Source: Candidatus Zhuqueibacterota bacterium (GTDB lineage: Bacteria > SM23-31). Taken from it: a DNA stretch of 10,567 nt. Under the pieces are notes generated by a model, which had not been told where the DNA came from, did no database searches, and was given only the letters and a program-made list of their open reading frames with translations. This document shows positions 1,141-4,205 of this stretch, in pieces. The stretch's first letter is position 1. Every line of letters begins with the position of its first letter. A program made the position numbers and the translations under genes. The stretch lies in NCBI GenBank assembly GCA_022562855.1, contig JADFON010000038.1, positions 1 to 10,567 of the forward strand. The letters run 5' to 3'.

Positions 1141-1170
1141 AGGGGTGAAATATAAAAGTTTGTCACTCTT
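1141..1170. terminator. Weak hairpin between the converging kinase and fapA genes
   Basis: AGGGGTGA (1141-1148) can pair with TCACTCTT (1163-1170) in eight base pairs, two of them G-U, across a 14-base loop. The right arm includes the fapA stop codon. No U-tract follows on either strand, so this is at best a poor intrinsic terminator. It is listed because it is the only fold seen in the 55-bp gap between these two gene ends. Confidence 0.2.
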
Positions 1171-2653
1171 GAAATTCCAACCTTTTTTTCTTATAGTTTT
1201 CTATAACTTCTTTGATTTCATGTATGCTGTACTTTGAATTTACTACTACGTTGTCACCTTCCACAGTATACAATCCCGTAATGAGTGGTTTGCTTTTGTC
1301 GTAAGACGATTCTTTAATTATCAAATCGTTAACGGGTTTCTTCTGTCCGTTATCCCTGACCTTTTTTGTAAACCCATGTTCGACGAGGATGAAAGGGTTT
1401 CCAAAAATGTACATCTTCTTTGAGATTTCATTTAACCTATCGGAATGTGAATCCCTCAACTTTTCCAGCTTCTTTAATTTCTCTAAAGTTTCGTTTAATT
1501 TTGCAACTTCTTTTGCTACCGATGGATTATTCGGCATCCGCTTTGCCATTTCTCTTATTGAGTCTTTCTTCTTAAGGAGGCTATGATTGGATAATTTGGT
1601 TTCCTTCTGTAGTATTTCTATACCCTCTAACTGAAGAGTCAATCTATTAAATTCTTCGTTTTCGACTATGTTTACACCGACAAGAATTGTGTTTTTCCCA
1701 TACAGATACTTTGTCCAAACTCCATATTTCGCGGTAATTGTACACTCCTGGATAATATGAGAACGTACAAAATCGGCTTCAACCGTTGATCCACCGCTTA
1801 TCTCTTTTTTTATTGTTATGATTCTGGACTTGATATCACGCTTGCCAATGATAAAACCTGTAGTAAGAAAATCGGCTTGGATCGGCAGATCACTGGTTCC
1901 TACTATCCCATTTTTTATGTCGAGGTAATGTGCCGTTATTTTTGCGTCTTCTACCGTTCCGCTCACGGTCACCTTGTTACATTGAACAGTAAACCCGCTT
2001 TGAATATCACCGTGTACAATTAACTCGATGTCAGACTCTAAAGGGAGGATTATCGATCCTGTCTTAATCCCAAGATCCCCGTTGATCTCGATTACTTGTT
2101 CTACGTGGAGCTTATTCTCACTTCTTTTAAAAATACCATCCACTTGTGCAACAAGTTTTTCGCCCGCTGTCGCGGTAAAATTACCCTGGACAACTTCCAG
2201 CGAAATATCGCTGCCCAATAACCCGTCGATTATATCACCGAGAACTGTAAAACCATTTTTTCCGCGTGTCGGTGGTGTGCGTGTGGCGAGAACCGCACCC
2301 TCTTTTACAAAAGTTATGAATCCTTCTCTCACGCCGTAATGATCGATCTTTGCGTCGGGATCGGAATCATTTTCTACCGGTTCATGTATTACCTTTTTTA
2401 TTTCAATCCTGATTTTTGCGTTTTCGCCTGTCTCCGGTGGAATGGCTTCTGCTACCTGGTACTTCCTGTTATATAACCGGTCATTACATATCTGAAGTAA
2501 GACTTTTGAATTAATCCCCTTAACTACTCCAGATTCCGTTAGCGCATTTTTTAGCTCTTCAGGAGAAATGTTGACAATATCTTCTTCTTTTTCCACGTCT
2601 ACTGTCAAAAATGCTTTTTTCCCGTCTTTAGAAATTTCAGTGTGTATTATCAT
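1163..2653 (-). CDS. fapA: FapA family protein (DUF342, flagellar assembly protein A type)
   Basis: A 496-residue cytoplasmic protein with no signal peptide or membrane segment. The family hallmark is VLATRTPPTRGKNGFTVLGD (residues 121-140), followed by the DGIF..SENKLHV stretch (172-184). From about 190 to 325 comes a glycine- and valine-rich run of short strands (NGDLGIKTGS, VHGDIQSG, VTVSGTVEDAKI) typical of the right-handed beta-helix core. A charged helical stretch at about 335-412, rich in K, E and L, looks like a coiled coil, and a small C-terminal domain follows. Length is normal for the family. FapA proteins are linked to flagellar assembly or polar localisation in some proteobacteria, but many members sit in genomes or loci without flagellar genes, as here, so the role is uncertain. 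The start is secure: GGAAGAAGG (2660-2668) lies six bases before ATG. Transcription is probably sigma54-dependent (site at 2718-2733). Confidence 0.9.
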   Translation of the reverse strand: MIIHTEISKDGKKAFLTVDVEKEEDIVNISPEELKNALTESGVVKGINSKVLLQICNDRLYNRKYQVAEAIPPETGENAKIRIEIKKVIHEPVENDSDPDAKIDHYGVREGFITFVKEGAVLATRTPPTRGKNGFTVLGDIIDGLLGSDISLEVVQGNFTATAGEKLVAQVDGIFKRSENKLHVEQVIEINGDLGIKTGSIILPLESDIELIVHGDIQSGFTVQCNKVTVSGTVEDAKITAHYLDIKNGIVGTSDLPIQADFLTTGFIIGKRDIKSRIITIKKEISGGSTVEADFVRSHIIQECTITAKYGVWTKYLYGKNTILVGVNIVENEEFNRLTLQLEGIEILQKETKLSNHSLLKKKDSIREMAKRMPNNPSVAKEVAKLNETLEKLKKLEKLRDSHSDRLNEISKKMYIFGNPFILVEHGFTKKVRDNGQKKPVNDLIIKESSYDKSKPLITGLYTVEGDNVVVNSKYSIHEIKEVIENYKKKRLEFQE

Positions 2654-2717: not shown

Positions 2718-2733
2718 GGCAATGTGCGTGCCA
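2718..2733 (-). promoter_or_regulatory. Sigma54 (RpoN) -24/-12 promoter of fapA
   Basis: The minus strand reads TGGCACGCACATTGCC, matching the sigma54 consensus TGGCACG-N4-TTGCW at every position except the final W. The invariant GG and GC have the required ten-base separation. Counting from the GC at -12, transcription would start near 2707, giving an untranslated leader of about 54 bases before the fapA ATG. Sigma54 promoters need an ATP-dependent enhancer-binding activator bound upstream; none is encoded in this window. The orientation and distance fit fapA only. Confidence 0.72.
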
Positions 2734-2923
2734 ATGCAATCTTATTATGAAAACGGAACATATGTCAGAGATTTTTTGATTACAAATAACCAGCCGTCTA
2801 AAAGTGGTTAATAATCCCCAACAATGAACTTTAAATGAAAATAGGGCATTTTTTCTAATAATAACTTTTAAGAGCCGATCTTCGGGTAATATCATCATGC
2901 TGCTACTGATCAAATTTGTATAG

Positions 2924-3176: not shown

Positions 3177-4205
3177 ATGTTTAATTTTATGAAGACAAAA
3201 CTTACGGTTCTGATTATACTAATGTTAGTTCTACCGTTGAAAGCGCAGAACGATGTAAATATTTCGGGATTATTCTACGGTGATTACTTTGCAATTCTGA
3301 AGAACCATAATGAAACCTTAGAAGGAGAAAACGCATTCCAATTCAGGCGTATTTACCTTACATTTGAGCAGGGTCTTTCCGATGTATTCGATTATAGAAT
3401 ACGAGTGGAAATGAGAAATGCTGGGGATTTTTCGACAAAAGACAAACTGACGCCGTTTATTAAGGATGCTTTTTTGAGATGGACACACAATAAATACAGT
3501 ATTCTGTTCGGAATTTCTGCAACACCTACATGGGGTATCGTTGAAAGAGTCTGGGGATACCGTTCGGTTGAAAAAACAGCGCTTGACCTGCAAAAATTAG
3601 GTTCTTCGCGGGAATTTGGTATCGCGTTCAAAGGTTCGATCGACAGCGAAAAGAAATTCAATTTCCACCTGATGGTTGGCAACGGTAACGGGCCAAGTTC
3701 GGAAGTAGGAAAAGGCAAAAAAGGATTAATATCCCTGTCTTTCATTCCCCATTCGGATATCGTGTTGGAAGGATATATTGATTTTGAGGACAGACCGGGA
3801 GGAAAGAGGAGAATTACAACCCAGGCTTTTGCAGGAATCGAAATGGAAAATTTCCGGACCGGGGTGCAATTTGCGCATCAGTCAAGAAGAGTAAGCCCAA
3901 ATACGGATGATCTTTCATTGCGGATTTTGTCTCTATTCGCCATCAAGAAGCTGAGTGACAAAACCTGGGGTTTTGCACGGTATGACAGGATGTTCGACCC
4001 TAATCCCGACGGGGAATCAATCGCTTATATCCCGTTTGACCCAACTGCCGACTCGAATTTTTTTCTTGCCGGTATAGATATTAAAGCGGATAAGGATATT
4101 AGCATAATCCCGAATATTGAAGCGGTATTTTACGGGAAAGACAGTGGGGGCAATAAACCGAACGCCGACATAATCGCGCGTTTTACGATAGCGGTTTTCT
4201 TTTAG
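3177..4205 (+). CDS. Outer-membrane porin-like beta-barrel (phosphate-selective porin O/P type)
   Basis: A 342-residue exported protein. A signal peptide is clear: basic MFNFMKTK, a hydrophobic run LTVLIILMLVL, then LKA|QN with cleavage likely after A23. The mature part alternates polar and hydrophobic residues in many short strands. Features recalling the porin O/P family are FQFRRIYLTFEQGLSDVFDYRI near residues 55-77, an aligned DAFLRW strand and an FGISATPTWG loop. The chain ends in aromatic IAVFF, the C-terminal signal read by the BAM machinery. It probably forms a channel in the outer membrane; the substrate cannot be read from sequence, and porin O/P members are not all phosphate-specific. 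GGAG (3166-3169) seven bases upstream supports this ATG; an alternative ATG at 3189 lacks such a site. It is transcribed alone and converges on tetR. Confidence 0.8.
   Translation: MFNFMKTKLTVLIILMLVLPLKAQNDVNISGLFYGDYFAILKNHNETLEGENAFQFRRIYLTFEQGLSDVFDYRIRVEMRNAGDFSTKDKLTPFIKDAFLRWTHNKYSILFGISATPTWGIVERVWGYRSVEKTALDLQKLGSSREFGIAFKGSIDSEKKFNFHLMVGNGNGPSSEVGKGKKGLISLSFIPHSDIVLEGYIDFEDRPGGKRRITTQAFAGIEMENFRTGVQFAHQSRRVSPNTDDLSLRILSLFAIKKLSDKTWGFARYDRMFDPNPDGESIAYIPFDPTADSNFFLAGIDIKADKDISIIPNIEAVFYGKDSGGNKPNADIIARFTIAVFF

Follow-up and report, generated by a model that had tools for sequence, protein, structure and literature searches.

Promoters of the sigma54 (RpoN) type carry a -24/-12 element and enhancer sites for an enhancer-binding protein (EBP), as in the PilR-pilA and NtrC-glnA systems. 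The gene name fapA is also used in Pseudomonas for a Fap functional amyloid gene whose product is an unrelated protein with only the gene name in common with the one described here, and RpoN papers on the Pseudomonas gene are irrelevant to this study. Sigma54 has been proposed to control the bacterial exterior (PMC3162934). FapA of Vibrio has been linked to the polar flagellum and to glucose signalling, and it binds EIIAGlc in the dephosphorylated form (PMC6877527); according to the title of a paper cited there, it is recruited by HubP. In Borrelia, fapA (BB0267) shares an operon with flgV and flhG (PMC11607428). A literature search combining DUF342 with sigma54 found no published case of a sigma54-controlled DUF342 gene.

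We analysed a stretch of 10,567 nt from a Candidatus Zhuqueibacterota bacterium (hereafter the window), in which a gene of the DUF342/FapA family is preceded by an exact sigma54 promoter element. The gene, its promoter and the divergent neighbour are located as follows.

1163..2653, minus strand: fapA-like gene of the DUF342 / FapA family, 496 aa (Pfam FapA_N, 7.7e-30)
2707, minus strand: predicted start of transcription, at the usual sigma54 distance of 12 nt downstream from the C in the -12 GC
2719..2733, minus strand: sigma54 -24/-12 element TGGCACGCACATTGC, an exact match and one of the 11 TGGCACRN4TTGC sites of the genome
3177..4205, plus strand: divergent porin-like outer-membrane protein, Porin_O_P (Pfam, 4.4e-6)

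The 496-aa ORF matched FapA_N at 104 bits against a curated cut-off of 27. An earlier note on this DNA had described a near-perfect RpoN -24/-12 site in the right orientation before fapA, at 2718-2733, which is TGGCACGCACATTGC plus one flanking C. The observation is real: read from 2733 to 2719 on the minus strand, TGGCACGCACATTGC shows 0 mismatches to TGGCACGN4TTGC and lies 66 bp from the ATG of fapA (2653) on the same strand, and counting from C2719 as -12 gives the same start, 2707, that the note had predicted. The sequence and spacing of the -24/-12 element and its intergenic location are the same as in known sigma54/EBP promoters, and paired palindromes, here putative activator sites, likewise lie upstream of it (see below). 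This promoter differs from them in serving a DUF342 gene and in having a palindrome without a known owner. We found no evidence that the porin-like neighbour shares the fapA promoter. On the other side, convergent with fapA, a gene for a histidine kinase with a C-terminal receiver domain (1-1107) is truncated by the contig start.

Under a first-order model of the sequence of the same genome, the exact form TGGCACGN4TTGC was expected 0.003 times per window and 0.75 times per genome, and was found once and five times, respectively. For TGGCACRN4TTGC without mismatch, 11 sites were found in the genome against 1.6 expected and 0 for a reversed-pattern control, and 46 sites against 3 for the reversed control were found over six genomes of the class. 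All 11 sites and 44 of the 46 were intergenic, overlapping no ORF of at least 110 aa, while the sequence outside ORFs makes up only 13% of this genome. The sites of this genome precede flagellin, fliK, pilin and M23-peptidase genes, among others, and the downstream families recurring across genera include pilX (133-aa pilin-like), flagellin, a PulG-like pilin, FliK and M23 peptidase. We read the set in this genome as a predicted sigma54 regulon in which fapA holds one exact site; its flagellar part comprises flagellin, FliK, FlgF/G-like genes and the MotA region, and the mix of pilin and flagellar genes agrees with the suggested control of the bacterial exterior by sigma54 (PMC3162934). The genome encodes eight proteins with strong matches to the Sigma54_activat domain; the earlier note had held that an activator must exist elsewhere.

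That note had also suggested scanning the genome for rpoN and for further sites. The sites were found, but a profile search with Sigma54_DBD and Sigma54_CBD gave no match in this draft metagenome assembly (2.51 Mb, 491 contigs, 79.6% complete). In the class relatives, rpoN is present in 5/5 genomes and is directly preceded by lptB wherever the fetched stretch reaches (that of G005 ends inside rpoN, with the lptB side unseen there), and its other flank is hflK/hflC or hslV/hslU. Contig C422 of this genome carries kpsF-lptC-lptA and then ends inside lptB (within about the first 65 codons, at contig base 3), and hflK, hslV and a close hslU match were not found in the assembly either. Because the contig breaks inside lptB, just before the usual place of rpoN, and these other genes are also missing, the likeliest reason for the lack of rpoN is a gap in the assembly after lptB, where we infer the gene to lie, and this lack was rejected as a refutation. 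With 11 always-intergenic sites in the genome, eight activators and the rpoN gap explained, the proposal that fapA is under sigma54 control is strongly supported, and we regard such control as very likely.

Some observations on other sites and contigs were made along the way. HSP20-like small heat-shock genes (by inspection), an unusual sigma54 target, follow exact sites in two genera (L141 in G002:C18 and L169 in G001:C192), and their promoters have common upstream elements around TGTCAT...TGGCA. A conserved protein of 113-122 aa, whose family was not recognised, has a sigma54 site in two genera (L115 in C157 and L150 in G002:C138). The end of contig C424 (L083 9745-12559) is unlike the rest, with arginine-rich ORFs, one of them JAB-like, and may hold defence genes or mark a chimeric contig.

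Upstream of the -24 element of fapA lie two copies of a 16-bp palindrome.

2777..2792, minus strand: putative activator site UAS2 TGGTTATTTGTAATCA, 43 bp before -24, exact YGRTTAN4TAAYCR, score 14.1
2805..2820, minus strand: putative activator site UAS1 TGGGGATTATTAACCA, 71 bp before -24, 13/16 positions matching TGGTTAATATTAACCA, score 14.8

The palindrome, with the consensus TGGTTAATATTAACCA, was first read upstream of pilX in G001; close variants precede pilX of G000 and G002, and a perfect palindrome, accompanied by only a weak -24/-12-like sequence, precedes that of G003. These four pilX promoter palindromes were the only training data of the scoring matrix (fapA was not used). The palindrome was first spotted by eye among 21 promoters, which makes the initial p-values post hoc, so the support rests on control windows and on promoters outside the training. 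The score of UAS1, 14.75, was not reached in any of 139 control windows upstream of genes in the same genome (maximum 11.9), and in 250 kb only six positions scored at least as high as the weaker fapA copy, two of which were fapA's own. Across the genome, palindromes with up to three mismatches were about as frequent as background (17 against 14 for the reversed pattern), and YGRTTAN4TAAYCR occurred six times. Among these 17, of which 15 were checked, only those of pilX and fapA had a -24/-12 site within 150 bp, exact in both cases, and a composite pattern of palindrome plus promoter gave three distinct hits in the class and no hit in the controls. In the untrained sigma54 promoters, palindromes were found, counting from the sigma54 site, at -71 and -44 for the gene of an Ig-like/Big_2 protein (G004:C24), at -71 and -41 for that of a DUF4382 lipoprotein (G001:C260) and at -89 for that of another lipoprotein (G001:C253). 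The fapA offsets (-71 and -43) fit those of the first two, and the pilX palindromes lie at -88 to -92 from the sigma54 site; in G005, a palindrome is located about 160 bp before a further, weaker sigma54 site. What is new here is a predicted fapA promoter with two copies of a palindrome common to pilin operon promoters.

The pilX gene encodes a pilin-like protein of 133-134 aa starting with MGQQQLLLIVLGV (L080 398-799, L224 4209-4610, L223 386-787 and L209 1419-1823), for which no Pfam match was found in the two copies tested. A PilC/GspF-type ORF follows it in 4/4 genomes, and in G001 it is followed by T2SSF and T2SSE genes, which point to pilX as part of a type IV pilus or type II secretion-like system. 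Directly upstream of pilX, G002 encodes a 485-aa activator with Sigma54_activat and HTH_8 domains (Pfam) and a GAF-like N-terminal part (inspection). A relative of this activator is encoded by G004:C298 (48% over nearly the full length), and the C-terminal piece of another lies on G005:C441 beside secretin and pilus-like genes. In the genome of the window, the only similar sequence (27% identity; 6e-9 against a database of two sequences) is an N-terminal piece of 124 aa where contig C170 ends, which may be the counterpart truncated there. The EBP of the fapA and pilX promoters is perhaps a GAF-AAA-Fis activator like the one beside pilX in G002.

The promoter element, its sibling sites, the EBP genes and the common palindromes with their offsets can be read directly from the DNA. 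The interpretation that we consider probable is that fapA has a working sigma54 promoter with an EBP acting on the palindromes, and that this FapA paralogue is made together with a pilus/surface programme and not with the flagellum. Because the palindrome precedes the pilin operon in four genomes as well as sigma54-linked surface-protein genes of relatives at matching offsets, and the flagellar promoters of this genome are without it, fapA is most likely part of a pilus/surface sub-regulon with a single EBP in control. The surface, motility or envelope programme suggested by the earlier note is thereby supported and narrowed, the palindromes being of the pilin-operon and surface-protein type.

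It is unlikely that the sigma54 promoter places fapA instead in the flagellar regulon with flagellin, FliK and rod proteins, its product aiding the assembly or placement of the flagellum as in Vibrio. A sigma54 flagellar regulon does exist in this genome, and FapA homologues act in flagella or are encoded with their genes in Vibrio and Borrelia (PMC6877527, PMC11607428), but the flagellin, fliK and M23-peptidase promoters of this genome do not have the palindrome (the G002 flagellin has a weak upstream match, 11.2), and flagellar co-regulation through a common enhancer was rejected on this ground. The window gene is also distant from flagellar genes, as had been claimed, with none among its neighbours in the window, and the flagellar cluster with FlaG and FlgN/FlgM-like ORFs is occupied by another DUF342 paralogue, on contig C405 (L087 2377-3771), which itself lacks a sigma54 site. 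The genome encodes at least five DUF342 paralogues, counting the window gene, including one near a MinD/FlhG-like ATPase (C281) and one (C392) that adjoins a GAF response regulator, with a PilT-like ATPase nearby. With Vibrio FapA, the window protein, which has the FapA_N domain, is likened by the family name, but its gene is one of at least five paralogues and has a pilin-type promoter. The family name is likewise shared with Borrelia FapA, whose adjacency to flhG resembles the setting of the C281 paralogue, whereas the window gene has no flagellar neighbours.

A further alternative, which we consider quite improbable, is that fapA depends on sigma54 but that the palindromes at 2777-2820 are uninformative on the EBP because they bind a different regulator, which could repress or could act on the divergent porin gene at 3177. 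A 16-bp palindrome would suit many DNA-binding proteins, but other genomes have this element too, at constant offsets (-71/-43 and about -89) relative to the sigma54 sites of other genes, as well as before the weaker G005 site.

The relatives available for comparison were few, and the assemblies are metagenome drafts. DUF342 genes fell into several groups in a tree, in which the window gene paired with G004:C44, its only orthologue, from another family and with 55-56% identity; the family of the window's own genome is represented by two further genomes, 63% and 76% complete, in which no orthologue was detected. The G004 gene starts 18 bp after a 109-aa ORF, and no sigma54 site with up to three mismatches was found in the preceding 500 bp, the sole candidate within 1.5 kb being 990 bp upstream with three mismatches. 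The earlier note had looked to orthologues in related genomes to keep the site and had counted its loss in close relatives as evidence against the promoter; conservation was not found, and in this one orthologue such a lack is what we observed. As far as can be seen, the fapA promoter is lineage-specific, because the only orthologue, in another family, does not have the site. A survey of 27 DUF342 ORFs, from the class and from a few genomes outside it, gave a site with fewer than two mismatches at the window gene alone, and none of the other sigma54 sites of the class precedes a DUF342 gene. A chance match, with the -24/-12 element unused and fapA read from an ordinary promoter, would agree with the orthologue lacking the site, with rpoN missing from the assembly and with a weak sigma70-like match upstream of fapA (2768-2739, minus strand), but is highly improbable in view of the roughly 0.003 matches expected per window, the 11 wholly intergenic sites against 0 in the control, the paired palindromes at the usual distance and sigma70-like matches barely above those in shuffles (5 against 3.1).

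We modelled the FapA protein with AlphaFold2 using nine relatives (pLDDT 84.7), and the model has an N-terminal alpha/beta part, beta-helix-like strands at about 210-325, a long coiled-coil helical hairpin at 329-414 and a small C-terminal part. FapA_N was the only Pfam match of the window protein, and PDB sequence and fold searches with it returned no informative relative and none with E <0.001.

If fapA belongs to the pilus/surface programme, RNA polymerase-sigma54 would occupy the -24/-12 element (2719-2733) in a closed state, and the EBP, which we infer to dock on the palindromes (2777-2820), would open the promoter by ATP hydrolysis when pili or surface proteins are needed, with transcription starting from 2707. 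The same EBP would most likely also activate the pilX-pilC-pilB operon of the type IV pilus or type II secretion-like system and, in relatives, most likely some of the surface-protein genes. That the FapA paralogue itself would serve the pilus/surface programme is the least certain step.

More tentatively, a DUF342/FapA paralogue may have passed from flagella into a type IV pilus/surface programme by gaining a sigma54 promoter and the pilin-operon enhancer sites, in which case FapA-type proteins would serve polar or envelope assembly in general and not the flagellum in particular; we hold this wider idea to be possible, though not the likelier outcome. For a lineage known here from metagenome assemblies alone, the analysis yields a predicted sigma54 regulon made up of at least two sub-regulons, one flagellar and one for pilus and surface genes. 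It also defines an activator-type motif, offers a candidate for the activator and predicts a pilus-linked role for one member of a family named after flagella.
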